Source: Pontiella desulfatans (GTDB lineage Bacteria > Verrucomicrobiota > Kiritimatiellia > Kiritimatiellales > Pontiellaceae). From it: a stretch of 64,000 nucleotides of DNA. The notes beneath the pieces were generated by a model, which was not told the DNA's origin, did no database searches, and worked only from the letters and a program-made list of their open reading frames with translations. Shown here piece after piece: positions 39,816 to 64,000 of the stretch (position 1 is the first letter of the stretch; every line of letters starts with the position of its first letter). A program made the position numbers and the translations under genes. The stretch lies in contig NZ_CAAHFG010000001.1 in assembly GCF_900890425.1 (NCBI RefSeq), forward strand, positions 1,302,001 through 1,366,000, read 5' to 3'.

Positions 39816-39839
39816 ATATAAGAAACAAGAGGAATGATT

Positions 39840-42800: not shown

Positions 42801-43106
42801 TATGCGTTGGGCGGCGATCCGCTGGATGCGGGCGATACAGGGTATGTTCCATCGGCCGGAATCCTGAATGAAAACGGAACAAACTGGATTGAGTATGTTT
42901 ATCCCCGCCGCATCGGATCCGAAGCGGAACTTGATTACGCTTTGGAAACCTGTTTCAACCTGATTTCCAACGATTGGAAGATCGGTAGCACAATAGAATT
43001 TCCTATCACCGGAAGCATTGATGCTGACTATGAAGCCGTTACGAACCGGATCGATACAACCGGAAAGACAAATGAATTCATTCGGTTGAAAGTCGATGCG
43101 TTCTAA
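39840..43106 (+). CDS. Modular secreted protein with beta-helix, unknown domain E and tail F
   Basis: 1088 residues. ATG 39840 is chosen because AAGAGG lies 7 bases before it, against 1 base for ATG 39834. The signal peptide ends SGHAV. Residues about 25-310 are a beta-helix-like passenger (NFTRDSGDTNWSNLDQWND opens it). A linker leads to domain E (about 474-950): LSERLCSLVPASR, YFMHQSGVYLKDP, FNMPWGGVRRTSTEY, FYVLGDDMQDL and FLYAHPVSNSFPIFEV. The same domain is in the giant sulfatase fusion at 51348-56762. Tail F (about 955-1088) has NNLAEYALGGDPLDAGDTGYVPS and ends TNRIDTTGKTNEFIRLKV. Domain E is long and conserved enough to be an enzyme, but I recognise no family. Its end overlaps the convergent regulator gene by 4 bases. 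Confidence 0.6.
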   Translation: MVRKFGSALGLCLMVAASGHAVNFTRDSGDTNWSNLDQWNDNSSGSYQNATNFPTSGDTVLLNAGKTVTVDTHATINTMVAPNATSDAVVEFVSGGGLTANSFHVGNSSQAGNGTVNHFAGSLAATTLSLRPTGTKTGTYNLYGGTVAATNLEVGNSAVGATGTATFVQSGGTVTTPDVDIGGSGPGTYEISGGSLDATGTFDILTNGRFMVVGTSAVVTATALDTQPGSTMAFKLDASGIGTMQVSGSVDLANASIAVDGAPYWGGATNFTLLDAGILASMAGSVSITGLANASVSQVGDSVVLNVVESKTTSVFENATGDGLWGTAGNWSPVGVPSGAVLARIGNGLAATFSTNQPVVDGIIIGSNATLVVQAGVAVPELRFEPLSSLKLVLSSVGLSPFTVSSGVVMDSSNPICIDGANYEGLDCYFPLILADNLPSSLTNQVSFAGFGIREPAVVVEDDGLWLRVIAMPSLSERLCSLVPASRVATDWSNTTFSVARKYDPSGSAWSVSFEEAHVLDTTLIQTAAHPNQSWELRTGIGGFIYSLRTGALGETVPPSWRSTQDTSPWNDEVWQGVAVGPLNNPSEGSPYFMHQSGVYLKDPVLTKPFYSPQVASHLDMENRSFTTVNWTPQAHVNIYVDENPTNDWKSYLLCYTRYRDMGQGVIEVMMGYYNYGPDHLDWFNMPWGGVRRTSTEYAFTSEPGGTTWRIPMTNGWGSSEDFDETGGWQGYSNTSNGVTPAMAFVFGQDTTPNLPGQKSDSWFRTGYAGGKAQYKPTETDWRNYLVSTAVRRYNLPQGNGLWSTHFYVLGDDMQDLSDRIQARGVIGADLAAFDYTEAGTPLVAYSVSGSGDTFQCVEDGGSPDFFLYAHPVSNSFPIFEVIEDDGARYLTWNPYANGIVKPYDGTMAGLRLLGFTMPVAGTNYTYAALSGLLPSANYLPDGKTLFARTATPFETWRVQHFGKTDDSGEGASTANPDSDSANNLAEYALGGDPLDAGDTGYVPSAGILNENGTNWIEYVYPRRIGSEAELDYALETCFNLISNDWKIGSTIEFPITGSIDADYEAVTNRIDTTGKTNEFIRLKVDAF

Positions 43107-43771
43107 TTGTTTCCGGAGGGGAAAAATCCGAGCGCGTGGGCGCGGTGTACGGCCGCCGGAGCGTTGGGCACGTTGAGTTTTTCGAAGATATGGGCAATGT
43201 GGTTGTCGGCCGTTTTTGCACTGATCGAAAGATGCTGGCTTATTTGTTTTCTCGCGAAGCCTTGGCTGATGAGGGTAAGAATCTCCATTTCCCGTTCGGA
43301 GAGTGTTGTGGATTCCTTCGGGAGCGCTTCCCCTTTTCTGATGCTTCTAAGAACATACTTCGCCATTTTTGGGTCTAACGAGGCTCCGCCTTCCATGACC
43401 AGTTGGATACCGGACTTTATCTCTTGAACCGTGGCCGATTTCAGCAGATATCCGGCGGCTCCTCGCTGGATGGCGGTCAGGATGTCGGTTTCACTATGGG
43501 ATTGGGTGAGGACAATGGTTTTCGTGGCGGGAATCAAACGGGAGAATTCCGTCAGCGCATCGAGACCGGATAGGCCGGGGAGGTTAAGGTCGAGCAGGAT
43601 GACATCGGGAACGTTCCGGGTGTTCATGTTCTGGAGGCTTCGCAGGGCCAGTTCCGCGGTTCCGAACTGGTTGATCAACTCCAGAACAGAATCATCCTGA
43701 AACGCAAATTGGATAACGTGTCGATATTCTGGATTGTCTTCCACCAGCATGAGTTTGATTTTTTGGGTCAT
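43103..43771 (-). CDS. NarL/FixJ-type response regulator, second copy
   Basis: 222 residues. Receiver domain with EDN at 11-13, Asp61 in VILLDLNLPGLSG, LTQSHSETD and YLLKSA; LuxR-type helix-turn-helix at the C-terminus (LSEREMEILTLISQGFARKQISQHLSISAKTADNHIAHIFEKLNV). It is a paralogue of the regulator at 32058-32723 with the same length and the same closing H-x-A-x-x-FP sequence. It overlaps the kinase upstream by 4 bases. Its stop codon also overlaps that of the convergent surface-protein gene. Likely controls some of the adjacent glycan-related genes (inference). Confidence 0.9.
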   Translation of the reverse strand: MTQKIKLMLVEDNPEYRHVIQFAFQDDSVLELINQFGTAELALRSLQNMNTRNVPDVILLDLNLPGLSGLDALTEFSRLIPATKTIVLTQSHSETDILTAIQRGAAGYLLKSATVQEIKSGIQLVMEGGASLDPKMAKYVLRSIRKGEALPKESTTLSEREMEILTLISQGFARKQISQHLSISAKTADNHIAHIFEKLNVPNAPAAVHRAHALGFFPSGNN

Positions 43772-46101: not shown

Positions 46102-48396
46102 ATGAGGAAAAACGCAAGGTGTACTATAGGACTGTTGGCTGCGCTTTCCATAAGCGCTCTTGCGGAGGTGGTGCTGCTTGATGAGGATTTTTCGAGCGCA
46201 TCCCTTGCAAAGTCGGGAAACCTGTTGCGAGATAGTACCGGCTGGGTCGTGCGAACGGTTTCCAATTGGGAGCTTGCCGGTGAAGCGTTGACGGGTACCG
46301 GGCAGGCGGCTGCCGGTGAAGGAGCCTGCGCACACATCATTCCCGTGGCAGGATTGGGACTTTCGAGTGAAAATTCGCTGACTCTGAGTTTTGACTATGC
46401 CACGACCAACGAGGGTGAAACGGTTTATGTGCATATCTGGGGGTGTAAAGAAAACGGCACTCCGTCATCCGCGACCACGGCGACAATGAATACCGGGGCC
46501 TCAAACGGAAATGTGTGGGATCAGAGCAATGCTCCTTTTGATATGTATAACCTAGGCAAAGACAACAGCGCTTTTACCGGAACGACTGGGATCGCGAGTG
46601 ATGCCGCCGTCAGCGGATTGACCGGTAGCGGAAGTTACACCAATACCTTTGATCTGAGCACCTTTACCACGGCGCCCTCTTCGCTGGATCAGTACGATTA
46701 TATTGCAATTGGATTAACTCGAAATCAGGCAAATGCCTCTGGGTTAACCTCGTTTGATAATATCAAACTCACTGCAGAAAAAGTTGCTGTGGTTGCTTCG
46801 GCGGTAGTTATCCCGGAAGAGCTGGTTATGGATATGGTTTCGCCGGCAACCGTGGCGACTGGAGCCGTTGACTTTGTTTATAATTCCGACACCAACCTTG
46901 AGGTTACCATTACGGTTTCAGACCAATCTCACCCAGGTGCCTTTGTGGCCCTGGATATCACACCGCTTACGCTGACCAATCCGGTGACTTCCCTGCAGTT
47001 TGAAATTGATAATGCACGCGCCGGCCTTGCAAACGGTGAGTCTGCAACGGGACTGGTTACTTTTGCGTGGACCGAACTTGGCAGTGCCGCCAACGGACAG
47101 ATTATTATGCCGATCAGCTCAATGTATGGATTTGCTCCGGGGCAGACCAATCTCTTTACCGGTGCGGTGGATTCGGAATGGGATAATGCTGCTAACTGGG
47201 ATCTGGCCCGTGTTCCCGGCGCATTGGGGGCGGATTTGGCCATGATCGATAGTGCATCGGTCGTCAATGTATCTAGCAATTATTCCGGTATTTACGCATG
47301 GGAGACCGTTGTGAAAGGCGGGGCTTTATTGAATATTGCCGCAGATTTGATCGGGGGTGCTGATACCATGGTCGGATCGGACGGTGACTATGGATTTGTA
47401 TATCAGACCGCAGGGGACAACGAAGTGGAAACCTTAACGGTTGGTGATGCGGCGGCTTTGTCGAATTCCGTGTATACGCTGTCGGGTGGAACGCTGACGA
47501 CTTTGGGCGAGCTCGTCATTAATTCCGGTGGTGTGATGAAGGTGACGGGCGGATCCATGGAGGTTGCGACTGCGGTTTCCTCAACTGCAAGGGGTGTGGC
47601 ACTGGCCTCTGGCGGCGTCCTTGAAATCAGTGGCGGGACCTATCAAGATACGAGCCGCATCTGGGGCGAAAGCGGTTGTACCGTTCGAATTATCGGTGAT
47701 GCCGCTGATATTACGGTACATCAACTCTTTGGCCGATACTATGGAAGTTTTGATTTCATACTGAATGAGACCGGTGTGAGCACCCTGAAGAACAACTCAT
47801 GGGGATCGTTGGGTACGGTTACATTCAATATTGACGGTGCAGCATATACCGGCGGACCTAAGGATATTGTGCTGTATTCCGGAGGCAGTAATAACGGTTC
47901 GCTGGGCAGCGATTATGCGGTAACGAACCTGGGTGTTGAAGGGGTGGATTGGGAAATCATTGAAACCACCAATACACCGCATACGATTACTCTGAAGATT
48001 CTCGGATCGGGATACGCAACATGGGCGAGCGGATATGGCCTTACCGATGCTGATGCCGCCGAAGATTTCGACTATGACGGCGATCTGTTCGATAACCTTA
48101 CCGAATATGCGCTGGGCGGAAATCCGACCAATGATGCGGATCGGGGATATGTTCCAACCTATGGAATCGCCGGTGAATATTTTGAATATGTCTATGCCCG
48201 CCGTCTCGGTGATTCCAACCTGGTCTATACCGCCGAGTTCGGTACGGACCTGGTGAACACGAACTGGGACAGCAGTGTGGTAAGCGAACTTCCAATCACA
48301 GGAAGCCTTACCAATGACTTTGAATCCGTTACCAATCGCGTTGACATGACCGGCAAGGATGTCGGCTTTATGCAGCTGTTGATCGAGTCGCTCTAA
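46102..48396 (+). CDS. Modular secreted surface protein (modules A, C, beta-helix, F)
   Basis: 764 residues, AAAAGGAGATAAAG upstream, signal peptide to about residue 20 (SALAEVV). Module A (about 20-225) has EVVLLDEDFSSASLAKSG, LSFDYATTNEGETVYVHIWG, NTGASNGNVWDQ and YDYIAIGLTRNQA. Module C (about 235-345) has VSDQSHPGAFVALDITPLTL. The beta-helix-like section opens WDNAANWDLARVPGALGADLA and continues in G-G-T/S turns (LSGGTLTTLGELVINSGG). Tail F (about 640-764) contains FDYDGDLFDNLTEYALGGNPTND and ends SVTNRVDMTGKDVGFMQLLI. No catalytic residues. Predicted extracellular or surface protein, perhaps a glycan-binding or adhesive component. Confidence 0.6.
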   Translation: MRKNARCTIGLLAALSISALAEVVLLDEDFSSASLAKSGNLLRDSTGWVVRTVSNWELAGEALTGTGQAAAGEGACAHIIPVAGLGLSSENSLTLSFDYATTNEGETVYVHIWGCKENGTPSSATTATMNTGASNGNVWDQSNAPFDMYNLGKDNSAFTGTTGIASDAAVSGLTGSGSYTNTFDLSTFTTAPSSLDQYDYIAIGLTRNQANASGLTSFDNIKLTAEKVAVVASAVVIPEELVMDMVSPATVATGAVDFVYNSDTNLEVTITVSDQSHPGAFVALDITPLTLTNPVTSLQFEIDNARAGLANGESATGLVTFAWTELGSAANGQIIMPISSMYGFAPGQTNLFTGAVDSEWDNAANWDLARVPGALGADLAMIDSASVVNVSSNYSGIYAWETVVKGGALLNIAADLIGGADTMVGSDGDYGFVYQTAGDNEVETLTVGDAAALSNSVYTLSGGTLTTLGELVINSGGVMKVTGGSMEVATAVSSTARGVALASGGVLEISGGTYQDTSRIWGESGCTVRIIGDAADITVHQLFGRYYGSFDFILNETGVSTLKNNSWGSLGTVTFNIDGAAYTGGPKDIVLYSGGSNNGSLGSDYAVTNLGVEGVDWEIIETTNTPHTITLKILGSGYATWASGYGLTDADAAEDFDYDGDLFDNLTEYALGGNPTNDADRGYVPTYGIAGEYFEYVYARRLGDSNLVYTAEFGTDLVNTNWDSSVVSELPITGSLTNDFESVTNRVDMTGKDVGFMQLLIESL

Positions 48397-48436: not shown

Positions 48437-48459
48437 TTGCTAAAAGGAGAAGTATGGAA

Positions 48460-49245
48460 ATGAAATACATAACAGCCGGGCTTTGCCTGGTTTTGGGGGC
48501 GGGGGCGTATGCTGACGCCGTTCTATTGAGTGATAGTTTTGACTCCAGTACGGTGAGTGCCGATAACGGTTTGCGCTATGATGAAATGGGCACTTCCGGT
48601 GCAGTCGGTTCCGGGGCGTGGCAGGCCGCGAGCGGCACCAAGTGGGGGATCGGCGGCGGAAGCGTTACGAATGCCAGCGGCGGAACGAATGCACAGAATG
48701 AGGGTGCATTGGGTCGTCTGGTTGACATTAGTTCTCTGACGGATTCCAGCCTGAATAAGATTAATTTGGCGGTTAATTTTGCGACGGCCAACCAATCTGA
48801 AACCTTGTATGTTCATCTCCGGGGATATGTGGCGCATGCAACGCCTGCAGCTTCGCGGCAGTTTGGAAATGTTGGTGCTACAAATGGCAACGTTTGGGAG
48901 CAGCAGTATAGTTCCGGTACAACCGTAAGCATCTATAATTTAAATACGGGCGTCGAGGTTTTAGATTCACCCCAAGCGGGTGCCGGTACAGCAGTCCAGT
49001 TGTCATCCGGCACATCGGGAGCACAGTCCGTCGATTTAACGTTTGATATGTCCGATTATGCAGTAAGCGATATTACCGGATATGATTATCTTGGCGTTTT
49101 CATCTCGCGTAATTCAGCAGGAGTTACTCCGATGGCTACGATTAATGACATCACGGTAACGGCGATTCCGGAACCGGCTACGTTGGGACTGATTGCCATG
49201 GTCGGCACTTCAATCCTATTCGTGCGCCGTCGGTTGGTGATTTAG
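48460..49245 (+). CDS. PEP-CTERM protein consisting of module A
   Basis: 261 residues. ATG 48460 has better spacing to AAGGAGA than ATG 48454. A signal peptide ends GAYADAV. The body is one copy of module A (VLLSDSFDSSTVSADNGLRYD, NFATANQSETLYVHLRGY, GATNGNVWEQ, YDYLGVFISRNSAG). The C-terminus is a textbook PEP-CTERM signal: IPEPATL, a hydrophobic helix (LGLIAMVGTSILFV) and RRRL. Exosortase cleaves such tails and the protein is then delivered to the surface or matrix; no exosortase gene lies in this window. It is the only array gene with this tail. A strong terminator follows. Confidence 0.85.
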   Translation: MKYITAGLCLVLGAGAYADAVLLSDSFDSSTVSADNGLRYDEMGTSGAVGSGAWQAASGTKWGIGGGSVTNASGGTNAQNEGALGRLVDISSLTDSSLNKINLAVNFATANQSETLYVHLRGYVAHATPAASRQFGNVGATNGNVWEQQYSSGTTVSIYNLNTGVEVLDSPQAGAGTAVQLSSGTSGAQSVDLTFDMSDYAVSDITGYDYLGVFISRNSAGVTPMATINDITVTAIPEPATLGLIAMVGTSILFVRRRLVI

Positions 49246-49480: not shown

Positions 49481-51322
49481 ATGAAAACAGGTTTATTGAG
49501 TGTGGTGTTGGGACTGATGGTCGGTGCCGCTAGCGGGGGCGATCGTCCTGCCAAGCCGAATGTTCTCCTGTTGCTGACCGATGATCTCGGCTGGCAGGAT
49601 GTGAAGTGTTACGACATTGATGAGCCGTCTCCCTATGAAACTCCGAATATCGATGCGCTGGCAAAAAAGGGCGTGATGTTCTGGCAGGCCTATTCGCCGG
49701 CACCCACCTGCGGGCCTTCTCGCTGCGCGATTATGAGCGGCACGCATCCGGCGCGGGCACAAATGACGCATGTGGCCGGCGGGTTTCCGCCTAATCCCAT
49801 TAACCAACATTTTCGCATGATGGATCCGTGGTACAGCGCCCGTATTCCAATGGATTCATTTACGCTGGCGCGTGCCATGAAGGCGAATGGCTATGTGACC
49901 GGCCATTCCGGCAAATGGCATATGTCAAAGAGTCATCATGCCGTTGCGCCGCAGCCGGAGGATGTAGGCTTTGATTGGACCCGCCACAGCCGTGGAGCTC
50001 ATACGGGGATGAAGGACCGATTGAGTGGATTTGCTACTACTGATCCGGACGATCCGTTTCGTCTGGATGAAAACGGATTCCCTTTTCATCAAAATAATGA
50101 AGATGCGCTGACGTTTATTCGAGAGAACAAAAACGAGCCGTTCTTTCTCTATTACTGCACCTGGCTGGTTCACGCACCGATTGTGACGCGCAATGAAGCC
50201 TTGTTGAACAAGTATGTGGAAAAGCTGGGGGTTGATCCGCGTAATACCATTAAGAAGAATGTGCCGGGACAGTTGAACCCGTTCTACTGCGCCATGGTGG
50301 AATCGCTGGATTATTATGTGGGGCAGGTTTTCCAATATCTGGAAACTACGGAAGATCCGCGCTGGTCGGGACACATGCTCAGCGAAAATACCTACATCAT
50401 CTTTACCTCCGACAATGGCGGAATGGAAGGTGGTCCGGAGGAGCGGTATACCGATAACAATCCGCTGGATCGCGGAAAAATCTCAGCCAAAGAGGGTGGA
50501 ACGCGGGTACCGCTCTTTATCGTCGGTCCTGGGATTCCGAAAGGGGTGCAGTCGGATGTAATGGTGAATGGACTCGATTTTTATCCGACCATTCTGGGGT
50601 TGATCGGTGCTGAAAAACCGAAAGACAAGACGCTTGATGGGCTCGATGTTTCAAACCTGCTGCTGAACGATCCGACCAATCCCAAACTGGTGAAAGAAGC
50701 TGACGGTTCCGTGCGCGATACCCTGATGTGGCACTTTCCGCACGGTGGTGCGTTGGAAAGCACGATCCGGGTGGGGGATTATAAACTGATTCGAAACTAT
50801 GATCATGTGAACGGCCACGAACCGGAACTGGAGCTGTTTCAGCTATATATGACGGAGGGCAGTAAGCAGGTGCGTGTCGATATTGAAGAGGCAAAAAACA
50901 TTGCGGCTAAGATGCCGGAAAAGACCGAGCAACTGAACAAACTGCTGACGCAGAGGCTCACGGAAATGGAAGCCAGCTATCCCTGCTACAACCCGAAATG
51001 CAAAGGCGACCTTCCAGGCATTGGAAAAACGCCGTCTGTTTCCAGTCATCGGAAGAAAGGTGCGGTCATCGAATTCCAGATCAAGGAAAACGGAGCAAAG
51101 GTACTGCGGGCTGATCTGATCTATACGCTGAATGGCGGCGGTCGATACGAGGAGTGGTTTCGTGCGCCGGCGCAGGTTTCCGGATCAAAAGTCATTGCGA
51201 AACTTCCTGAAGGAACAACGCACGTATTTCTCAATCTGATTGATGAAAACAACTTTCTGGTCAGTTATCCGGAAGTGGTCAAAAAGAAAACGTATTCAAC
51301 GGCAGCGATTGCGATTAAGTAA
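49481..51322 (+). CDS. Secreted sulfatase, formylglycine (Cys) type
   Basis: 613 residues with a signal peptide ending ASGGDR. Active-site features: KPNVLLLLTDDLGWQDVKCYD, CGPSRCAIMSG with Cys77 for formylglycine, HSGKWHMSKSHH, WLVHAPIVTR, FTSDNGGMEGG and a Lys/Arg set in GGTRVPLFIVG. The C-terminal 120 residues form a beta domain ending TTHVFLNLIDENNFLVSYPEV, shared with the sulfatases at 51348 and 61038, so these three form one subfamily. It would release sulfate from a glycan outside the inner membrane. It is followed after 25 bases by the giant fusion gene and probably starts the degradative operon. Confidence 0.92.
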   Translation: MKTGLLSVVLGLMVGAASGGDRPAKPNVLLLLTDDLGWQDVKCYDIDEPSPYETPNIDALAKKGVMFWQAYSPAPTCGPSRCAIMSGTHPARAQMTHVAGGFPPNPINQHFRMMDPWYSARIPMDSFTLARAMKANGYVTGHSGKWHMSKSHHAVAPQPEDVGFDWTRHSRGAHTGMKDRLSGFATTDPDDPFRLDENGFPFHQNNEDALTFIRENKNEPFFLYYCTWLVHAPIVTRNEALLNKYVEKLGVDPRNTIKKNVPGQLNPFYCAMVESLDYYVGQVFQYLETTEDPRWSGHMLSENTYIIFTSDNGGMEGGPEERYTDNNPLDRGKISAKEGGTRVPLFIVGPGIPKGVQSDVMVNGLDFYPTILGLIGAEKPKDKTLDGLDVSNLLLNDPTNPKLVKEADGSVRDTLMWHFPHGGALESTIRVGDYKLIRNYDHVNGHEPELELFQLYMTEGSKQVRVDIEEAKNIAAKMPEKTEQLNKLLTQRLTEMEASYPCYNPKCKGDLPGIGKTPSVSSHRKKGAVIEFQIKENGAKVLRADLIYTLNGGGRYEEWFRAPAQVSGSKVIAKLPEGTTHVFLNLIDENNFLVSYPEVVKKKTYSTAAIAIK

Positions 51323-51347
51323 AAAAGATAAAAAAGAGGAACGCGTT

Positions 51348-54300
51348 ATGAAATCTATGTGGGCAGGAATTGTACTGATAGGAGCAGTATGTGTCGGATA
51401 TGCCGAAACCGTATTAATCAACGATGATTTCAGTGTAGGAACGGTTGGGACGTCATTGACCATAGGCGCTGCAAATGATGGGCAGTGGTATGCTGAAAAC
51501 GGTTCAGTCTGGACGATCACTAACGGAGTGCTGGGTAATGCAGGTGGTTCTTCAGATGTTTCCAATAATGAAGGTTCACTGGCTCAGTTGGTTGATCTGT
51601 CCGGGATTACGGATACCAACCTGAGTTCACTGACGCTGAGCTTTTTGTATCAGGGCAATTCCGCGACAGAAGAACTGTATGTTCATCTTTGGGGGATGAA
51701 TTTTGCAACCGCCCCGGCGGATGGCACATCTGTGGTTAATCACGGAGCAACCGCCGGGAATATGTGGAAGATCGGTGCTTCATCGACGGCTTTTAACAAC
51801 GGAGACCTATATAACCTTGGAAATCTGAATGGCGAATTTTTCAATGTCAACGTAGGGGCCTACCAAGAGGCGGCAGTCCGGATTCCAACCACCGGAACCG
51901 ACCTCGTCAATTTCAGCCAGACGTTTGACCTTTCAGTCAATACGAATGGCATGGATAACATTGCGGCCTTCGACTATTTGGTCATTGGAATCACCCGCGA
52001 TGCCAACGGTACTGATCCTTCCATTGTCATCGATGACTTCATGCTGGCCGTTTCGGATCCCTCAGATAATCCTCGTCCGGCGCAACCAAACTTTATTCTT
52101 CTGCTGGCCGACGACCTCGGATGGCAGGATGTTGGATGTTACGATATCGATAACAATCAGGTTTTTGATACGCCGTATATGGACAATCTCGCAACAGAGG
52201 GAACCCGGTTTACGCAAGCGTATTCGCCGGCCTGTGTGTGTGCGCCGACCCGCGCCGCTATTCTAACCGGTAAACATCCGGCTCGACTGAACTTCACCAC
52301 GGTGAGTGGGGGCTCTGTCTGTCCTCAACCTTCCGATCTGAGCAGTCGGGTAATGACGCCGTATCACCATAGACGATTGGAAGCTGCGGAAACCACCTTG
52401 CCGGAAGTGTTGAAGACTGCCGGCTATTATAATGGTCATATTGGTAAATGGCATATGGATGGACCTGACGAATTGGAGCAGGGTTTTGACTATTCCGATG
52501 GTGACCGCGGGGCAACGATTACACTGGGCGACCGAACAAGCGGTTTTTCAGATGACCTCGATGAAAACGGGTTTGCTTATGATCAAACCACGGAGAATGC
52601 GCTTGGATTCCTGAGTTCGGCCACTGAAACTAATCAACCGTTCTTCTGTTATTTTGCCACCTATCTGGTGCACAGTCCGTGGCATATCCGCACCGAGAGT
52701 CTGCTGCAGAAATATGCCGATCGCATGGGCTATGATTATCCGCTCACCGGCGAAGAATATTTTGCACCGGGGCAGAATAATCCGTATTACGGCGCGATGG
52801 TCGAAACCTTTGACTACTATGTACATCGGGTCATGACCTACCTGAAAGAAACGGATGATCCGCGTTGGCCGGGACATAAACTGATTGAAAACACCTATAT
52901 CTTCCTGACCTCGGATAATGGCGGCATGGAAAATGGAGACTCCCAAGGGAAGGTGACCGATAACTACCCGTTGGATCAAGGGAAGATTTTTCAGGAGGAG
53001 GGGGGGCTGCGTGTGCCGTTTTTTGTTGTGGGGCCGGGGATCTCCACCAATGTGGTCAGCGATGTGATGGTTAATGGACTCGATTTCTATCCCACCTTGC
53101 TGTCGCTTGCAGGCATTGACATTCCGTCCGGGATCGACGGATGCGATATTTCGGAGCTGTTGTTAACGGATCCGCAGGATGAGGAGTTGGTTACCGATGA
53201 GGGTGGCGATGTGCGCGATACCATGTATTGGAGCTACCCGCATATTTCTGGAACCCGCATGAATGCCACGATGCGTAAGGATCGCTGGAAGCTCTTCCTG
53301 AACTACGATCATGTGAATAATGCTGCAGCGAACGAGTTTCGTCTCTATGAGCTCTATGATACCAACGGGGTTCGTGTGGATATCGAAGAGGCCAACGACG
53401 TATGGAATGCCGACTTGGTCTTAACGGAACAACTGGGCGATTCATTGAAAGCCTGGCTGGACGAGGTCGATGCCAATGTCCCGCATTATAATCCTCATTA
53501 CACCGGCTCGCCTTCACTACCCAATCAGGATCAAGTTCCGGGCGTTATCACTAATGGTAATGGCGGAGGCGGCGTGGTGTGGGTGGAATATGAGACCGAC
53601 AAAGCGGCTATGAAGCGCGTCGATTTGCTCTACACCCGGAATGGAGAAAGCTCCAGCCAAACATGGCTTCGTAAGGAAGCAACGATTACAGCATCCGGCC
53701 GGGCCGAAGGCGAGGTGCCGGAAGGAACCACGCATTATGTGTTTAACCTGATTGATGAAAATAATTTCCTCGTCAGTTATCCGGATGTAGGGACGGGAGG
53801 TGATGGGTTGCTCGACTCCGCCTTTGCGATTTCCTATGTGGAACTGCCCTATGTTAATCCTGCACCGCAGGTAGAAATCTTCAGCGAAGATTTTTCCGGC
53901 GCAACACTGGATACCGCAGGCCTTAAACGGGATAGTGTGGGATTCTGCATCGGCGGCAGCAGTGCCTGGGCGATTGATAACGGCGAACTGGTGAATACCA
54001 GCCTGGTGAATACTACGGTCAGTGAAGGGGCGGCAGGGTGCATTATCGATTTGTCCACGCTGGAAAATCCTTCAGTGTCTGAATTTACCCTGAGCTTTGA
54101 TTATGCGTTGGCTGAAGACAACGAAACGCTCTATGTGCATGTCTGGGGCTATCAGGATCATAGTTCAACGCCAACGACGGCGATCCTGAATCACGGAGCA
54201 TCCAACGGAAATGCATGGGAAGACGCCTCGCCAGCCATGACGGCTTATAATTTTGGGAACTCCAACGGCGTTTGGGTCGGCACCAAAGGAATTGCTTCCG

Positions 54301-56762
54301 ATGCTGCGGTAGCGGTGTCCGGCTTTCAGGGTATGACGTCCTATGCAAGAACCTTCGACCTATCAGCGTTTACATCAGCTCCGAACCAATTGGGTGAGTA
54401 TGATTATCTGGTGATCGGTTTTGCTCGTAACTTCAGTGGAAGCGCGCCAGCAGCAACAGTTGATAACGTAAAGGTGAAGGTGCCCTCATCGACGATCATT
54501 GTTGCGGAATCCACCAACTGGTCATCTCTTGTATCAACCACAAACGATTCCGTTGAAATTGAGTCCGGCGTAACGGTAACGGTGGATGTCGAGGCATCTG
54601 CACGATCGCTCCGGCTGGATGGTCTGCTTCTGTTTAAACTGGGCGTGCTGGGGGCTGATCCTCTCACACTGGAAGAGAATTTAGCGGTGGGTTCGAGCGG
54701 TTCCATTGTTGTGGATGGATCGGATTATGAGGCGCTTGATGGCTACATGCCGTTGATCTATAACTCAATGCTGGATGGTAGTTTAACCAGCCGGGTTTCC
54801 TTTGTGGGCTTTGAAGGGCGTGAGCCGGCTGTTGTTATTCTGGATGAGGGTATGTGGCTTCGCTTGGTCGAACCACCAAGTTTATCTGAACGCATCTGTT
54901 CTGTAGCTCCTGCATCAACGGCGAATGCAGATTATACGGATTCTATTTTTTCTGCAACGCGTGGATTTAAACTGACCGGTTCGGCGTGGGGTTCCCTCTA
55001 TGATGAATCGGTCGTTATGAACACCACGCTGGAGCAGACCGTGATGGATGGTGGAAGCGGCGCGTTGAATCAGTCCTGGTCCATGACCATCGGGCATGGC
55101 GGCCAGATTGCTTCTTTGCGTACTCCTGCTCTGGGCGAAACCGTCCCTCCGCAGTATCAGAGCAACCCGGGGTCTGCTCCATGGATCGATGAGGTCTGGC
55201 AGTCAGTGGCCATCGACCAAACCCTGAATAATTCCTACGACAATGCACCTTACTTTATTCATCAGGCGGGCGTTTATCCGACCAAAGATGATGAATTGAC
55301 GGAGGCTTTCTATTCGCCGGCGGTTGCGGCCTATGTAAATGAAGAGAACCGTAGCTTCATGATGATTAACTGGGGGCAGCATGCACATCTGCAGGTGTAC
55401 ACCAACAGTATCCCGGAAGATGATTGGCGGTCGGACCTACTCTACTTTACCGGCGTTAAGGATCTGGGGGATGGGGTAATTGAAGTGTCACAGGGCTACT
55501 ACAACTACGGTGTGGATAACCCGACCTACTTCAATATGCCGTGGGGAGGCGTGCGCCGCACGAGTACCGAGTATTGTTTCTTTAATGACCCGAGTGGGAC
55601 GAGCTGGTCCGATCCTATGACGGCACACTTCGGCGATGGCGTGAAGACCAACTATTCCGACACCGGCGGAGCCATGGCATGGAGTGCTTCCACCAATGGT
55701 ACGACGCCCTGTCTCGGGCTCGTTTTCGGACAAGACCCAGATCCGCTTCTCCCGAATCAGAAGTCGATCAGTTGGATGCGCTACGGCCATCATGGAACTT
55801 TCAGTTGGGACGAAACCTCCTGGCGGAACTATTATGTGATCAGCGCGATCCGGCAATACTACCTGACCCAGGGGCGCGGCGTTTGGTCTCGGTATTACTT
55901 CGTTCTCGGAGACAATCTGGATGATATCCAGGATCGCATCGACGAGCGCGAGTTGACGGCGGTTCCGTCGCTCGAGCCGTTTGATTACACCGAAGCCAAT
56001 ACGCCTTTGGTTGCGTATAGCTATACGGGAAGCGGAGCGGATTTACAGATCGTGGAAAACAGCACTTCTCCACAGTTCTTTCTCTATGCCTATCCGGTAA
56101 ACGGCAGTTTTCCGATCTATGAAATATTGGAAGATGATGAAACGTACCACATCACCTGGGATCCGTATGCAACGGGTGTCATTAAGACCTACGATGGAAC
56201 CATTGCCGGAATTCGCCTGCTGGGTTTTGCCCCGAGAACAGCAGATGTGTCGGGAAGCCCTTATACGTATGAATCGCTCGATACACTGATGGCGCCGGCT
56301 TCGCAAAACTATATCGCCTCCGGAGAAACGCTGTCGGCACGTACGGCAACATCGTTTGAAACGTGGAAAGTGCAGTACTTTGGCATGACCGATGATTCGG
56401 GTGATGGAGCCAGTATAGCCAACCCGGATAACGATAGCGCCGACAACCTGATTGAATATGCCATGGGCGGCGATCCGCTGGATGACTCCGATACGGGGTA
56501 TGTTCCAACCTCTGGAATGCTGGCCGAAAACGGAACCAACTGGTTTGAGTTTGTTCATCCTCGCCGGATCGGCGCAGAGGGCGAAATAGCGTATCGGATC
56601 GAAAGCAGCTCCAACCTGATTTCCAATGATTGGAAAACCGCGGCCCATACTGAACTTCCAATGACTGGAAGTCTGGATGCCGCCTATGAAGCAGTCACCA
56701 ATCGGATCGATACCACGGGTAAGACCAATGAGTTTATTCGACTGAAGGTGGAGGCGCTGTGA
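51348..56762 (+). CDS. Giant multidomain protein: module A, sulfatase, module A, domain E, tail F
   Basis: 1804 residues from ATG 51348 (AAGAGGA upstream). The signal peptide ends VGYAET. Order: module A (about 20-240, VLINDDFSVGTVG); sulfatase (about 246-815) with FILLLADDLGWQDVGCYD, CAPTRAAILTG where Cys298 is the formylglycine residue, GKWHMDG, FLTSDNGGMENG and TTHYVFNLIDENNFLVS; second module A (about 844-1045, EIFSEDFSGATLD); a linker of strands; domain E (about 1178-1660, LSERICSVAPAS, FNMPWGGVRRTSTEY, YYFVLGDNLDDI); tail F (about 1670-1804, IEYAMGGDPLDDSD, ending TNRIDTTGKTNEFIRLKV). A sulfatase inside binding modules and an unknown domain suggests one secreted machine that desulfates and then binds or cuts the same glycan. 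Confidence 0.8.
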   Translation: MKSMWAGIVLIGAVCVGYAETVLINDDFSVGTVGTSLTIGAANDGQWYAENGSVWTITNGVLGNAGGSSDVSNNEGSLAQLVDLSGITDTNLSSLTLSFLYQGNSATEELYVHLWGMNFATAPADGTSVVNHGATAGNMWKIGASSTAFNNGDLYNLGNLNGEFFNVNVGAYQEAAVRIPTTGTDLVNFSQTFDLSVNTNGMDNIAAFDYLVIGITRDANGTDPSIVIDDFMLAVSDPSDNPRPAQPNFILLLADDLGWQDVGCYDIDNNQVFDTPYMDNLATEGTRFTQAYSPACVCAPTRAAILTGKHPARLNFTTVSGGSVCPQPSDLSSRVMTPYHHRRLEAAETTLPEVLKTAGYYNGHIGKWHMDGPDELEQGFDYSDGDRGATITLGDRTSGFSDDLDENGFAYDQTTENALGFLSSATETNQPFFCYFATYLVHSPWHIRTESLLQKYADRMGYDYPLTGEEYFAPGQNNPYYGAMVETFDYYVHRVMTYLKETDDPRWPGHKLIENTYIFLTSDNGGMENGDSQGKVTDNYPLDQGKIFQEEGGLRVPFFVVGPGISTNVVSDVMVNGLDFYPTLLSLAGIDIPSGIDGCDISELLLTDPQDEELVTDEGGDVRDTMYWSYPHISGTRMNATMRKDRWKLFLNYDHVNNAAANEFRLYELYDTNGVRVDIEEANDVWNADLVLTEQLGDSLKAWLDEVDANVPHYNPHYTGSPSLPNQDQVPGVITNGNGGGGVVWVEYETDKAAMKRVDLLYTRNGESSSQTWLRKEATITASGRAEGEVPEGTTHYVFNLIDENNFLVSYPDVGTGGDGLLDSAFAISYVELPYVNPAPQVEIFSEDFSGATLDTAGLKRDSVGFCIGGSSAWAIDNGELVNTSLVNTTVSEGAAGCIIDLSTLENPSVSEFTLSFDYALAEDNETLYVHVWGYQDHSSTPTTAILNHGASNGNAWEDASPAMTAYNFGNSNGVWVGTKGIASDAAVAVSGFQGMTSYARTFDLSAFTSAPNQLGEYDYLVIGFARNFSGSAPAATVDNVKVKVPSSTIIVAESTNWSSLVSTTNDSVEIESGVTVTVDVEASARSLRLDGLLLFKLGVLGADPLTLEENLAVGSSGSIVVDGSDYEALDGYMPLIYNSMLDGSLTSRVSFVGFEGREPAVVILDEGMWLRLVEPPSLSERICSVAPASTANADYTDSIFSATRGFKLTGSAWGSLYDESVVMNTTLEQTVMDGGSGALNQSWSMTIGHGGQIASLRTPALGETVPPQYQSNPGSAPWIDEVWQSVAIDQTLNNSYDNAPYFIHQAGVYPTKDDELTEAFYSPAVAAYVNEENRSFMMINWGQHAHLQVYTNSIPEDDWRSDLLYFTGVKDLGDGVIEVSQGYYNYGVDNPTYFNMPWGGVRRTSTEYCFFNDPSGTSWSDPMTAHFGDGVKTNYSDTGGAMAWSASTNGTTPCLGLVFGQDPDPLLPNQKSISWMRYGHHGTFSWDETSWRNYYVISAIRQYYLTQGRGVWSRYYFVLGDNLDDIQDRIDERELTAVPSLEPFDYTEANTPLVAYSYTGSGADLQIVENSTSPQFFLYAYPVNGSFPIYEILEDDETYHITWDPYATGVIKTYDGTIAGIRLLGFAPRTADVSGSPYTYESLDTLMAPASQNYIASGETLSARTATSFETWKVQYFGMTDDSGDGASIANPDNDSADNLIEYAMGGDPLDDSDTGYVPTSGMLAENGTNWFEFVHPRRIGAEGEIAYRIESSSNLISNDWKTAAHTELPMTGSLDAAYEAVTNRIDTTGKTNEFIRLKVEAL

Positions 56763-56891: not shown

Positions 56892-57752
56892 ATGAATATA
56901 AATAACTTTGTGGTAGGAATGGTACTGGTTGGATCGTCCGTGTTTGGTGCGGCGGATGCGCAGTGGACGTATAAAACGGTGGGCGAAACGGAACTTAAAA
57001 TGGATGTGTTCCTGCCGGACGGCTATGAATCGTCGAAGGAACAATTTCCAACGATTGTAATTTTTCACGGCGGCAGCTGGCGGACGGGAACACCCGATAT
57101 GCATTACCCGGATTGCGCCTATTGGAGCAAGCGGGGAATGGTCGCGGTGTCGGTCGATTATCGCCTGAAAGAGCGCGACAACATTGAAGTGCCGCTGGAA
57201 TGCGTTAAGGATGCCAAGTCGGCGGTGAGGTATTTGCGGAAAAGTGCAACGAAGCTGAGGGTTGATCCAGACAAGCTGGTTGTGGCCGGCGGTTCGGCGG
57301 GTGGACAGATGGCCGCGGCAGTGGCGATGATCGATGGCGTGAATGACGAGGACGATGATTTGTCGGTCTCCTGCAAACCGAATGCCGTAATTTTGTATAA
57401 TCCATGGTTTAAGTGCGAGGCCGAACTGTCTCCTCCCAATTTTATCCGTGAAGGACTGCCTCCGATGATCACGTTTGTCGGAAGCGAGGACCCGGGAATC
57501 CCGAACGAGAGTCTGTTGACGTTTCATAAGGATCTGAAACAGGCAGGGAATGCGTCGGAGTTTTATATCGGCAATGGCGGCAAGCACGGGTTCTGTAATG
57601 GGCGGAATCCACGCAACCGCTTTTTCTATTGGTCGCTCGAACTGGAGGATGCCTTTCTGGTGAAGCACGGCATTCTGAGAGGAGCGCACCAGGTTGTACG
57701 TCCGGGCAACGTCACTCCGCTGGCGCCGAAAGAGTTTGTTGCCTATGACTAA
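56892..57752 (+). CDS. Secreted alpha/beta-hydrolase, esterase-like
   Basis: 286 residues with a signal peptide ending FGAADA. The fold is the carboxylesterase/acetyl-esterase branch of the alpha/beta-hydrolases: oxyanion HGGSW, nucleophile Ser135 in AGGSAGGQMA, acidic residue probably in FVGSEDPGIP, and His in GGKHGFCNG. Such enzymes remove acetyl or similar groups from carbohydrate chains, which fits its place between sulfatase and fucosidase genes, as natural fucoidans are often acetylated. The ribosome binding site is weak (no clear GGAGG), so the start is less certain. It is probably co-transcribed with the gene 43 bases downstream. Confidence 0.75.
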   Translation: MNINNFVVGMVLVGSSVFGAADAQWTYKTVGETELKMDVFLPDGYESSKEQFPTIVIFHGGSWRTGTPDMHYPDCAYWSKRGMVAVSVDYRLKERDNIEVPLECVKDAKSAVRYLRKSATKLRVDPDKLVVAGGSAGGQMAAAVAMIDGVNDEDDDLSVSCKPNAVILYNPWFKCEAELSPPNFIREGLPPMITFVGSEDPGIPNESLLTFHKDLKQAGNASEFYIGNGGKHGFCNGRNPRNRFFYWSLELEDAFLVKHGILRGAHQVVRPGNVTPLAPKEFVAYD

Positions 57753-58974: not shown

Positions 58975-59190
58975 ATGAAAAAAACATTCACACTTATCCT
59001 GGCCGCCGTTTTATGCGGAGCGGCATTGGCGTATCCCCCGGAGGCCGGATCGGATGCAGAAAAGGAAAGCAAAAAAGGCTGGGCCATCGTGCCGGATCCC
59101 GACCTTCCCAATGTGCTGATTCTGGGTGACCAAACGGCATTGAAGAGAGGGGTTCAGCTGAAGGGAAACGATGGGGCAGCCGGGATATGA
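58975..59190 (+). pseudogene. Truncated SGNH-hydrolase N-terminus
   Basis: 71 residues: a signal peptide (MKKTFTLILAAVLCGAALAYP) and GWAIVPDPDLPNVLILGD, the typical mature start of secreted SGNH hydrolases, where GDS with the catalytic Ser follows. Here the sequence continues as GDQTALKRGVQ and stops, so the Ser and the rest of the enzyme are missing. It overlaps the fucosidase start by 4 bases (ATGA), so it may still serve to couple translation of the next gene even though it is no longer an enzyme. Confidence 0.7.
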
Positions 59191-60989
59191 AAGCATGTTT
59201 GGCAACTGTTATTGCAGGGTGGGCTGTGTGTGTGTTTTCGCAGAGCTCAGTCGATTCGGTGATCAAGGTTACAGGGAGCGATGAGTTCGGATCGGCCGGG
59301 GTGGGGATCTATACCCCGGAAATCCGCGAAAACATGAAAAAGCTCTATGAGGACAAGTTCGGCATGTTTGTCCACTTCGGCCCGTACGCGCAGCTGGAAG
59401 GGATGTGGGACGGCAAAGAGGTGACCGGCGAATGGATCATGAAGCGCGCATTTATTCCGGTGAAAGATTATGAACGCGAGGCCGCCGGAAAGTTTAAGCC
59501 CGTTAAGTTCAATGCCGCTGATTGGGTGACGATTGCCGAGAATGCCGGCATGCGGTTTATTGTTCTGACCGCCAAGCATCATGATGGCTTTGCGATGTAT
59601 CAATCGAAGCATCCGTATAATCTCGTCGAGTTTGCAGGCTATGGTCGCGATATCCTGAAGGAACTTTCCGAAGAATGTGCAGAACGCGATATGAAGCTGG
59701 GATTCTACTATTCCCAGAGCCAGGACTGGCATGAGCCGGGCGGCTTCGGCAACCACTGGGATTTTGAAGGTAACCTTAAGCCGCAGGATAAGTTCGATGC
59801 CTACTTCGAAGAAAAGGCCGTCATGCAGGTGGAAGAGCTGACGCAGAATTATGGCGACGTTTTTATGGTTTGGTTCGATACCCCCGTCCAGATGGATGAT
59901 GAAAAGTGCCAACAGATGATGGATGTCGTAAAAGCTAATCAGCCGGGTGCTCTGGTGAATTCAAGGCTGGGGAAGGGTTATGGGCATTTTGATGTCTCCA
60001 TTGATAACGGAAAAACGCCGGCGGTCAGCAAGGCCACCTGGCTTCCGGATCTGAAAGTGCCGTGGCAGACGCATGAATCGGTTACGGAGGGCGGTTGGGG
60101 CTATACCTGTTTTGGCGGGGATAATGACCGTTCCGAAGAATACACGGAATTTATCTACAGCCTGTGCCGGATTGTCTGTTATGGCGGCGTCTATCTCTTG
60201 AATGTTGCTCCGCAGCCGGACGGCACCATTCCGCAATCACAGGTCAACACGATTACGGCCATGGGCGATTGGCTGAAGGTGAATGGTGAAGCCATTTATG
60301 GAGCAGATCCGAGCCCGTTAAAATTTCCTCCCTATGCCATCACGAGCAAACCGGGGAAAGTGTACCTTCACCTGAAAGAGATCGAAGGAAATGAAGTTAA
60401 ACTCAATGGGCTGCTTTCTAAGGTTCGGAAAGTGTACGGTTTGGCCGATGTATCCAAGCAGGCGCTCGATTTTAAACAACACGAAGCACAGCTGTGTATC
60501 AACCTGCCCGACGAAAAGAAACAGCCGCGCGTCACCGTGATTGTATTGGAACTTGAAGACGAAGTTTCGCAGGTTATCGACGAAACCATTCAGCAGGCAG
60601 CCGATGGCTCCATCCATATGCCGGTGGCCAAATGCGAATATTCCGTCCGACGAATCAGTTATGACTATGATGCCCAAACCACGCGCAACTGGGGTGGAAA
60701 AGATAATCAGGGCCTGGTCTGGACGGTGAACGTCAAACAGCCCGGAACCTATCAGGTGTTCAGCGAAGATAATGGAGATGAGAAACTGGGGTATGAACTG
60801 AAGACGCCATCGGATCGTTTGATGGTCCGTCCCGGCGGACCCGTTGGTGAAATGACGAAAAAACCGGTTGGTGAGATTGGAATTGATCAGCCCGGCATTC
60901 TTCAAATCACGGCTTATCCCGCCGACACGATTTCCTGGTTCAATGACTTCCGGCTTAAAGGCGTGAAGCTTGTTCCGGTTGAGAAATGA
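59187..60989 (+). CDS. GH29 alpha-L-fucosidase
   Basis: 600 residues, signal peptide ending FSQSSV. The enzyme removes terminal alpha-L-fucose from glycans by a retaining mechanism outside the inner membrane. GH29 landmarks: FGMFVHFGPYAQLEGMWDGK, RFIVLTAKHHDGFAMYQSKH, KLGFYYSQSQDWHEPGG and the nucleophile Asp231 in VFMVWFDTPVQ; NVAPQPDGTIPQSQVNT closes the catalytic domain. A C-terminal beta region with TYQVFSEDNGDEKLGYEL and a final carbohydrate-binding-like strand set extends it beyond the usual 450-500 residues. It lies between sulfatase genes on one strand, consistent with combined desulfation and defucosylation of a sulfated fucan. The start overlaps the SGNH relic. Confidence 0.93.
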   Translation: MKACLATVIAGWAVCVFSQSSVDSVIKVTGSDEFGSAGVGIYTPEIRENMKKLYEDKFGMFVHFGPYAQLEGMWDGKEVTGEWIMKRAFIPVKDYEREAAGKFKPVKFNAADWVTIAENAGMRFIVLTAKHHDGFAMYQSKHPYNLVEFAGYGRDILKELSEECAERDMKLGFYYSQSQDWHEPGGFGNHWDFEGNLKPQDKFDAYFEEKAVMQVEELTQNYGDVFMVWFDTPVQMDDEKCQQMMDVVKANQPGALVNSRLGKGYGHFDVSIDNGKTPAVSKATWLPDLKVPWQTHESVTEGGWGYTCFGGDNDRSEEYTEFIYSLCRIVCYGGVYLLNVAPQPDGTIPQSQVNTITAMGDWLKVNGEAIYGADPSPLKFPPYAITSKPGKVYLHLKEIEGNEVKLNGLLSKVRKVYGLADVSKQALDFKQHEAQLCINLPDEKKQPRVTVIVLELEDEVSQVIDETIQQAADGSIHMPVAKCEYSVRRISYDYDAQTTRNWGGKDNQGLVWTVNVKQPGTYQVFSEDNGDEKLGYELKTPSDRLMVRPGGPVGEMTKKPVGEIGIDQPGILQITAYPADTISWFNDFRLKGVKLVPVEK

Positions 60990-61037
60990 AAAGCCAGCGA
61001 ACAATAAATAGTGCGGACTAAAAGAGGAATGAATGGA

Positions 61038-64000
61038 ATGAAGAAGTGGATCTCATGTTGCTCTATATGGATGCTGGCGTTGCTTGCAATAGCCCAGCGC
61101 CCGGCAAAACCGAATTTTGTAATCCTGTTGGCCGATGACCTCGGATGGCAGGATGTGGGGTGCTACGACGTCGATGCCAATGCGGTGTATGAAACGCCGT
61201 ATATGGATCAGCTGGCAAGCGAGGGCATTCGGTTCACACAGGGCTATTCGCCGACCCCGGTCTGCGGGCCGAGTCGCTACGGAATTCTGAGCGGACGGTT
61301 TCCGGCGCGAGGAAAAACATCGGTGCAGGGCGGGGAGTGCCCGAAACCCTACACGCAGTCGTTCCGGATGATGGATCCATATTACACCGGTCGCATGGAG
61401 CTGGAGGAAATCACCATTGCCGAGGCGCTCAGGCCCTATGGCTATTTGAGTGGGCATTCTGGAAAATGGCATGTGGCCGTTAATCATAACTCGTTCCCTC
61501 AACCAGGCGATCAAGGCTTCGACTTTTCGGAACACGATCTCGGTATTTCGCGGAAAATGAGTGACCGCCTGACCGGCTTCGCCACAATCGACCCTTCCGA
61601 TGCCTATCAGCTACAGGATCTCGATGGAAACGCTACGACCAATGGATATGCCTTTGACCAGACCACGCAGGATATTATCGATTTCATGGAGATGGCCGTG
61701 GCCTCCAATGCGCCGTTCTTTAGCTACTATGCCGCATGGTATGTGCATGCGCCCATCCAGACCCGGACGGAACGGCTGCTGGAAAAGTATGCGTTGAAGA
61801 TGGGCTATTCCTATCCGCTGGACGGCTCGGAGGATCTTTCCGCCGATGCCCAGATCAATCCCTATTACGGGGCCATGGTGGAGGAGTTCGACTTCAATGT
61901 GCAGCGGATTATCCAATATCTAAAAAACACCGATGACCCGCGTTGGCCGGGGCACAAACTGATTGAAAACACCTACCTGTTCCTGACTTCCGACAATGGC
62001 GGTATGGAGGGAACCGCCAGCGAAACGTATACCGACAATGATCCGCTCGATCGCGGGAAAATCCGTGCGGAAGAGGGCGGGGTGCGGGTCCCCTACATTG
62101 TGGTCGGTCCCGATGTGCCGACCAATGTCGTCAGCGATGTGATGGTGAACGGGCTCGATTTTTATCCGACCATGTTGTCGCTCGCCGGCATACCGGTTCC
62201 GGAGCGGCTCGAAGGGTGCAACCTGAGATCGCTGCTGCTGGACGATCCGCAGGACAGCGATCTGGTGAAGCATTTCGACGGCTCCGTGCGCGACACCATG
62301 TATTGGCACTTTCCGCACGGCGGCGCATTGCACAGCACCATCCGCAAAAATGGATGGAAACTGTTCCGCAACTATGACTGGCTCGACAACTCCAGCCTCG
62401 AACCGTACCGGCTCTACAAGTTGTACGACACGGATGGATCTGAAAATGATATTGGCGAGAACTCCGATCTGGTGGATGTGGAGACCGCCATGGCAACCCA
62501 GCTCTCGGCCGAGCTGAATGCCTGGCTGTCCAACGTGAACGCGCGGTTGCCGCACTATAATCCGACCACAACCCAGACGCTGACGAACAAGGAGAACGTT
62601 CCGGCGGTGCTGGACAGCGGTAGCAGCAACGGCACCGCATGGGTGGCGTTTCAGGAAAATGGCGCCGCGGTGGTGCACGCCGATCTGATCTATACCCTCA
62701 ACGGCGACGGCAGTGTGGATGAAGAGTGGTTCCGCATGGATGCCCAGTTGGATGCGGTTAACGGCCGGGCGGAGGCCGTGATTCCCGATGGGACGACCCA
62801 CTATGTGTTCAACCTGATCGACGAAAACAACTTCCTTGTCAGCTCCGTGGATGTCGGGATCCTTTCAAATTTCATCCCGGATTCGGAAGTGGTGCCTGAG
62901 TATGAACCAACGCAGGAATTATTCGCCGAAGCCGGTTTTACGAATGTCGGAACAGCCTACCCGACCAATGAGGTGCTGCTGGGCAGTTCGATCAGTGACG
63001 TGAACGGGGTGCCGGTTCGGGATAATGATTCCTACACGACCGCCGTCGGCCAGACCTTTACGCTGACGAATTCTGCAACCTTGACTGCCCTTACCCTCAA
63101 AGGCGGGAACAACAAGAGCTTTGGGAGCGGGGATCATAAGGTGGCGTTGTGGATCGGCGGTTACAACAATGGAACGCCGGGGGAAACGCGGGTTTATGAA
63201 TACATTGATCTGGAGAATACCTCCGTCAGCAGTGGCCCATACTATACGATCGACTTTGCCGACAAGGTTTTCCCGGCCGGCCGCTATTCATTCCAGCTTG
63301 GCTGGACTACGAACCATACATCGCACGATATCCGGTTCTTCCGGGCAAGCGGTACGGGCACTCTCGACGGAGAGGGCCGGCTCTATGGCAACAATGTTAC
63401 TGCATTGCCGTTCAGTAATTCGAATGTGGAAGATAACAACGATGTGGTCTATGCGTTGCACGGCAGTGCGGGCGCGCCGGATCCAGATCCGAACCCGGGC
63501 ATTGCCGACAACAACCTGAACTATACCTATCTCTACTTTGAAAACGGATTGCCCACGCCCATGAAGCACCGCCGCTCCCAGAGCGAGGCCAATGCGGCGG
63601 CGAGAGCCAACCCCGACCTCGTCATTCAGACCGGTTACTACAGTCTGTTGCTGGACTGTGACGATATGGATTTCAAAGGCTACGATGCACTCGCCGGATC
63701 GGACTACCGCGGGGCGCTGACTAATGATGTTTCCGTTTTCACGTTGGCGGATCTGATCCTGTCGGTGGTGAAGGACGGCACCAACTTCACCTGCACCTCC
63801 GCATCCGTTCAGAATTCAACCAACCAGCTGGTGCGGCTGATCCAGAGCAACCGCTATGTGCAGCGCTTCGATCACCTCGGTCTGCTGTTCAAGGATAGTC
63901 TTGGAAACACACTGGCAGGCGTGCGTTTCGAGATGACGGCGTGGGCGGATCGCGTGGCGCTCAAGCTGGATGCTTCTGATGTGTCCGGGGTCACGGAAAC
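61038..64000 (+). CDS. Multidomain sulfatase fused to module B and the unknown family of 27346-29742 (3' end outside window)
   Basis: At least 987 residues; open to the right edge. ATG 61038 has AGAGGA at the right distance; ATG 61029 is too close. After a signal peptide (to about residue 20) the sulfatase domain spans about 24-605: NFVILLADDLGWQDVGCYD, CGPSRYGILSG with Cys76 for formylglycine, HSGKWHVAVNHN, FLTSDNGGMEG and TTHYVFNLIDENNFLVS. Module B follows (about 628-811, VGQTFTLTNSATLTALTLKGG, ALWIGGYNNG, AGRYSFQLGW). From residue 826 comes YTYLYFENGLPTPMKHRRSQ, LVIQTGYYSLLLDCDD, YVQRFDHLGLLFKD and EMTAWADRVALKLD, homologous to the start of the protein at 27346-29742. One secreted polypeptide thus joins a sulfatase to that unknown module. 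Confidence 0.85.
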   Translation, partial: MKKWISCCSIWMLALLAIAQRPAKPNFVILLADDLGWQDVGCYDVDANAVYETPYMDQLASEGIRFTQGYSPTPVCGPSRYGILSGRFPARGKTSVQGGECPKPYTQSFRMMDPYYTGRMELEEITIAEALRPYGYLSGHSGKWHVAVNHNSFPQPGDQGFDFSEHDLGISRKMSDRLTGFATIDPSDAYQLQDLDGNATTNGYAFDQTTQDIIDFMEMAVASNAPFFSYYAAWYVHAPIQTRTERLLEKYALKMGYSYPLDGSEDLSADAQINPYYGAMVEEFDFNVQRIIQYLKNTDDPRWPGHKLIENTYLFLTSDNGGMEGTASETYTDNDPLDRGKIRAEEGGVRVPYIVVGPDVPTNVVSDVMVNGLDFYPTMLSLAGIPVPERLEGCNLRSLLLDDPQDSDLVKHFDGSVRDTMYWHFPHGGALHSTIRKNGWKLFRNYDWLDNSSLEPYRLYKLYDTDGSENDIGENSDLVDVETAMATQLSAELNAWLSNVNARLPHYNPTTTQTLTNKENVPAVLDSGSSNGTAWVAFQENGAAVVHADLIYTLNGDGSVDEEWFRMDAQLDAVNGRAEAVIPDGTTHYVFNLIDENNFLVSSVDVGILSNFIPDSEVVPEYEPTQELFAEAGFTNVGTAYPTNEVLLGSSISDVNGVPVRDNDSYTTAVGQTFTLTNSATLTALTLKGGNNKSFGSGDHKVALWIGGYNNGTPGETRVYEYIDLENTSVSSGPYYTIDFADKVFPAGRYSFQLGWTTNHTSHDIRFFRASGTGTLDGEGRLYGNNVTALPFSNSNVEDNNDVVYALHGSAGAPDPDPNPGIADNNLNYTYLYFENGLPTPMKHRRSQSEANAAARANPDLVIQTGYYSLLLDCDDMDFKGYDALAGSDYRGALTNDVSVFTLADLILSVVKDGTNFTCTSASVQNSTNQLVRLIQSNRYVQRFDHLGLLFKDSLGNTLAGVRFEMTAWADRVALKLDASDVSGVTE

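Follow-up and report, generated by a model that had tools for sequence, protein, structure and literature searches.

A single open reading frame on the plus strand (51348–56762) of the window, by which we mean the whole 64,000-nucleotide stretch of Pontiella desulfatans DNA analysed here, encodes a protein of 1804 residues. It begins with ATG at 51348, the stop codon ends at 56762 and there is no internal stop. Two catalytic domains lie within this one frame, an S1-type sulfatase and a domain of the GH174 type (denoted E). The sulfatase is located between two homologous copies of a module, A1 and A2 (∼ 30–32% identity, E about 1e-23, blast), an arrangement which the original prediction had described correctly. 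That prediction also had the second copy followed by an unknown domain E and a tail F; both exist, but linker B had been left unseparated and E had not been recognized as a fucanase. Pfam and NCBIfam gave no name for E, A, B or F. The gene comprises the following features.

51335..51340, plus strand: ribosome-binding-like AGAGGA, 7 nt 5' of the ATG (from the sequence)
51348..56762, plus strand: fused gene, signal–A1–sulfatase–C–A2–B–E(GH174)–F (open frame; segment-wise blast)
51348..51407, plus strand: signal-peptide-like N-terminus, residues 1–20 (by eye from the sequence)
51408..52055, plus strand: module A1, residues 21–236 (blast of segments; profile of A)
52068..53447, plus strand: S1-type sulfatase domain, residues 241–700, with Cys298 (PF00884, PDB relatives, active-site residues)
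53448..53861, plus strand: C, the C-terminal part of the sulfatase subfamily, residues 701–838 (conserved with subfamily members)
53862..54527, plus strand: module A2, residues 839–1060 (segment blast, A profile, structure model)
54528..54917, plus strand: linker B, residues 1061–1190 (precedes E in relatives too)
54918..56267, plus strand: domain E, GH174-type endo-1,3-fucanase, residues 1191–1640 (D1281, E1282, E1379)
56340..56759, plus strand: F, genome-wide C-terminal domain, residues 1665–1804 (profile matches)

The sequence makes a misassembly of 51348–56762 unlikely. The GC content of the gene is even throughout (0.48–0.55), with the exception of the last block of 4 codons, and the longest exact repeats are 21 bp when the gene is compared with the rest of the window (within F) and 12 bp inside the gene itself. 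Just one genome shows this architecture, as would be expected if the fusion were an artefact of assembly or annotation that joins two genes. Given the uninterrupted frame, the even GC and the shortness of the repeats, together with a different sulfatase fusion in the same locus (sulfatase–C–X–F, see below) that recurs in three related genomes, we regard such an artefact as very improbable.

A profile built from eight E sequences gave only two matches in the PDB up to E = 10, the endo-1,3-fucanases 8jd7 and 9k1g (2e-92 and 2.5e-74), and the single E sequence from the window matches the same two entries (5.7e-35 and 8.1e-35). The relationship to the characterized enzymes is distant (roughly 125 bits across some 430 residues). 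The residues reported for Fun174A, with which GH174 was founded (founder paper 2023), are D119, E120 and E218 (review, PMC11943901). These correspond, with a constant offset of 2 from which we infer that 8jd7 is Fun174A, to D121, E122 and E220 of 8jd7 and to D1281, E1282 and E1379 here. D1281 is kept in 86 of 87 E domains and E1282 in 83 (D in 3), values that are partly circular because the pattern used to fetch the loci covers that motif. At the position of E1379, 59 of the 87 domains have E and 27 have Q; R1403 is kept in 86/87 and R1493 in 85/87. Judged by its sequence, domain E belongs to the endo-1,3-fucanase family GH174, and the predicted cutter therefore sits in the same chain as the sulfatase. 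This identity supports and sharpens the suggestion that the fusion could remove sulfate from a polysaccharide and cut it, and the protein is most likely a two-enzyme chain of sulfatase and backbone-cutting fucanase. The bonds that GH174 members reportedly cleave lie either between Fuc2S and an unsulfated fucose or between two Fuc2S units, and Fun174A is described as having no significant activity on brown-algal fucoidans (PMC11943901); the substrate may therefore be another sulfated fucan.

The sulfatase domain is matched by PF00884 at residues 247–590 (E = 9.1e-42; 143.8 bits versus a gathering score of 25) and by SGSH_C at residues 548–688. The formylglycine signature C-x-P-x-R is present as CAPTR at 298–302, within CAPTRAAILTG. 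Every S1 active-site residue that we tested is in place (D255, D256, C298, R302, K367, H369, H442, D523, N524 and K546), in agreement with the earlier description of an intact motif and active site. The genome holds one match above cut-off to the anaerobic sulfatase maturase model TIGR03942 (513.5 bits versus 349.45), just as a single anSME gene has been reported for P. desulfatans F1. We propose that this maturase would activate the sulfatase at Cys298.

The nearest solved sulfatase in a PDB sequence search is 9fo1 (AMOR_S1_16A, S1_16; E = 2.1e-54), whose description names the S1 residues and calls Trp79 and His149 characteristic of S1_16 (PMC11760155). When Trp79, His125 and His149 of AMOR_S1_16A were compared, only H369 agreed; V319 stands for the Trp and L393 for His149. 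Because of these two replacements we do not file the sulfatase under S1_16, and the label suggested by the best PDB match is ruled out as a membership by the signature residues. The two S1_16 residues are also missing from the other members aligned: in the 25 aligned rows of C-bearing sulfatases, which count one protein twice (the part in the window and L068), the position of Trp79 is Val in 25/25 and that of His149 is His in 0/25.

AMOR_S1_16A is exo-acting (PMC11760155), and the sulfatase of the fusion protein P36 works on oligosaccharide ends before its glycosidase does (PMC8511951). It is possible, if somewhat doubtful, that the sulfatase studied here is likewise exo-acting, trimming sulfate from oligosaccharide ends once the chain has been cut by E or another enzyme, with the tether only co-delivering the two activities. 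However, in the S1_16 enzyme it is Trp79 that closes off the non-reducing end, and with Val in its place in all 25 aligned rows the exo pocket may be open. We prefer a sulfatase that acts ahead of E on the same polymer.

Three members of the subfamily that lie beside GH174 genes (L137:4618-6621, L140:5964-7946 and L145:4621-6621; Spartobacteria/Chthoniobacter/Terrimicrobiaceae genomes) have Ser instead of the catalytic Cys and have lost several metal and sulfate ligands. They are likely to be inactive sulfatases retained next to the fucanase.

Module A hardly occurs outside this locus. In the whole genome (8,658,305 bases, 6 contigs) the A profile has 6 matches, 5 of which lie at roughly 34.9–54.5 kb of the window. 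Its structure model (pLDDT 77) is a lectin/CBM-like β-sandwich with weak fold matches (TM about 0.3–0.45) to lectins, CBM4, CBM22, a porphyran CBM and a putative sugar-binding protein. The matches also include several toxin and lectin chains with a β-sandwich of this broad type, which we read as similarity of fold only. The idea that the protein could hold a polysaccharide is plausible on the strength of this model, if weakly so. Domain F, an undescribed domain of about 138 residues to which neither Pfam nor NCBIfam gave a match in the scanned proteins, is distributed quite differently from A. Its profile has at least 118 matches in the genome, from the scoring of 150 out of 267 candidates, and each of the 30 best ends 0–4 codons before the stop. 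F is therefore taken as a general C-terminal domain, outside the substrate logic of the locus, and is a candidate sorting signal.

The genes around the fusion that bear on its function are listed below.

27346..29742, plus strand: stand-alone X domain, 798 residues (52% to the sulfatase-fused X)
34884..37172, plus strand: protein with an N-terminal A module (segment blast)
39834..43106, plus strand: second GH174 protein, B–E–F, 1090 residues (D574, E575 and E670 intact)
46102..48396, plus strand: protein with N-terminal A (43% to A2) and C-terminal F (segment blast)
48454..49245, plus strand: module A alone with a PEP-CTERM tail (profile/domain scan)
49481..51322, plus strand: sulfatase of the same sulfatase–C subfamily, ending 25 nt upstream of the fused gene
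56892..57752, plus strand: α/β-hydrolase esterase (PF20434, 4e-24)
59187..60989, plus strand: GH29 α-L-fucosidase (PF01120, 9.7e-64)
61008..63998, plus strand: start of a 1741-residue sulfatase–C–X–F protein (the frame runs on to about 66230; continues in L068:2009-7231)

With its GH29 enzyme, esterase, second GH174 protein and further sulfatases, the gene content identifies the locus as one for the degradation of a fucose polysaccharide, and P. desulfatans is reported to grow on fucoidan (PMC7356697). E is distant from the characterized enzymes, and the closest sulfatases of known structure have galactose or GalNAc sulfates as substrates, which would fit a domain E that has drifted in specificity and a target that is some other sulfated polysaccharide. 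We consider this unlikely in view of the GH29 enzyme and the fucan-type partners, both in the locus and in other fusions, and a sulfated fucan remains our preferred substrate.

Two gene pairs around the locus (43103–45765 and 32058–34678, minus strand) include a sensor kinase with weak to moderate F5/8-type matches, and these kinases are possible fucan sensors. An IS-type transposase with an integrase core lies near the left end of the window (2495–3964, minus strand). Domain X, undescribed and of about 800 residues, is joined to the sibling sulfatase of the same subfamily and is followed there by F. The X regions are 75–85% identical in the related genomes G001, G008 and G016, and a protein of 2570 residues in L081 combines X with E, A and an esterase. 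X has no Pfam match and no PDB sequence match; we claim no family for it, its model being weak (pLDDT 66) with weak fold matches (TM under 0.3).

A contig scan based on E yielded 113 pattern matches and 89 relatives, of which the best 80 loci were kept. None of these 80 loci has a sulfatase and E in one frame. E itself occurs in 10/288 genomes of the class, 7/387 of the phylum (the class and phylum sets overlap) and 7/392 of the planctomycete phylum (that of G544), and no other sulfatase–E frame was seen among the E matches in these sets, as judged by frame length and by tblastn on the loci with up to 1.5 kb of flanking sequence. The exact architecture, whose absence from all relatives the original prediction had set as counting against it, was thus not found in the other genomes searched; what recurs is its parts, its neighbours and fusions of other kinds.

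The recurrent association is one of neighbouring genes. Of the best 80 of 89 GH174 loci, 13 have a C-bearing sulfatase from the same subfamily as a separate neighbouring gene, and these 13 are in Verrucomicrobia, Planctomycetes and Lentisphaerae; some sulfatase is present in 31 of the 80. By chance about 0.26 loci would be expected versus the 13 observed (12 strong copies per 54 Mb in nine genomes; 1.154 Mb of locus DNA), a value on the high side because the nine genomes had been chosen for having such a sulfatase. We searched 14 genomes for the sulfatase, 9 picked because it lies near E and 5 because it does not. Ten of them hold 3, 1, 1, 1, 2, 1, 2, 1, 3 and 2 copies at ≥ 455 bits and four hold none (one with a 248-bit match). 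In all nine of the chosen genomes the coordinates of one copy fit the E locus (by hand, from locus ranges). In G008 the E gene stands directly before the gene for the sulfatase–C–X–F protein.

GH174 fusions elsewhere likewise have fucan-type partners (esterase, GH29). Among 26 E frames over 850 residues, 12 were scanned for partner domains: an AXE1/DLH-type esterase is found in 9/12 (L153 just under the Pfam cut-offs), and the remaining three have GH29, only PATR repeats and no Pfam match, respectively. A Saprospiraceae protein of 1013 residues (L088:1456-4494) joins GH174 to a GH29 fucosidase.

In a tree of the sulfatases (29 rows) the fused enzyme falls, on a long branch (0.65), into a 7-row group (support 100/99) with the sulfatase–C–X–F proteins of G000, G001, G008 and G016 and a protein of G025. 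The upstream sulfatase (49481–51322) is placed elsewhere, among stand-alone enzymes. From this placement the fused gene looks like a locus-born join of an A–sulfatase–C part with an A–B–E–F part. Both halves start with an A module, and elsewhere separate genes do the same job; these two points would suit a protein that is cleaved after export into a sulfatase and a fucanase acting separately, which we think quite unlikely. We favour a chain that stays in one piece.

Our model, which we consider probable, is one secreted two-enzyme protein for sulfated fucan. Once matured, the sulfatase would take off particular sulfate groups and E would next cut α-1,3 bonds in that chain. The polysaccharide is probably bound by the A modules, and F would serve as a general C-terminal secretion or sorting domain. 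An attraction of the fusion is that a tethered sulfatase could produce sites for cutting, since GH174 enzymes reportedly depend on defined sulfation at both sides of the bond.

We further speculate that the protein is a desulfate-and-cut machine. In such a machine, an unassigned, GH174-partnered subfamily of fucan sulfatases that lacks the blocking Trp might act inside the chain, making the pattern for the tethered GH174 domain, and the locus-confined module A might be a new fucan-binding family common to the enzymes and their PEP-CTERM-anchored partner. As it stands, this extended version is rather unlikely. If true, it could explain how GH174 enzymes attack the algal fucoidans that Fun174A alone leaves.

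Fucoidan is a carbon store that is degraded slowly; there is reported to be no model of the exact mechanism of its breakdown (PMC7356697), and the sulfatases acting on it are largely an open question. Fused to a fucanase here, and adjoining a fucanase gene in several phyla, the subfamily described above points to a specific sulfatase for a specific fucan. It offers a lead to a partner enzyme in fucoidan breakdown, and makes it possible to test directly what the substrate is, which enzyme acts first and what tethering gains.

In sequence, E resembles Fun174A and GH174 endo-1,3-fucanases (8jd7, 9k1g) and has the three catalytic residues reported for Fun174A, but it is a distant relative and shares its chain with a sulfatase and with A and F modules. 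The sulfatase has the same catalytic residues as the κ-carrageenan sulfatase AMOR_S1_16A (9fo1), which has Trp79 and His149 where the fused protein has Val and Leu. That sulfatases usually stand alone, as the original prediction had it, is fair as a rule, but fusions have been reported for strains F1/F21 and others (PMC6388578, PMC8511951, PMC4807772). Those of strains F1/F21 (Kiritimatiellales) are S1_7–GH10, S1_7–GH32 and S1_15–GH29; they are the same kind of gene as the sulfatase–GH174 fusion, and none of those named involves an endo-fucanase (PMC6388578). Sulfatase–glycosidase fusions are also reported from planctomycetes (PMC4807772). We found no sulfatase–GH174 fusion in print, in a literature search that took in few subscription papers. 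In P36 of Formosa agariphila, an S1_25 sulfatase–GH78 rhamnosidase, sulfatase and glycosidase share one chain, as here, and both domains are reported to act in consecutive steps (PMC8511951). P36 has an exo-acting rhamnosidase and is directed at ulvan, whereas the protein described here has a domain of an endo-type fucanase family and a sulfatase of another subfamily. Sulfatase–glycosidase fusions are known, Pontiella strains included, and it is the pairing with GH174 that appears to be new.
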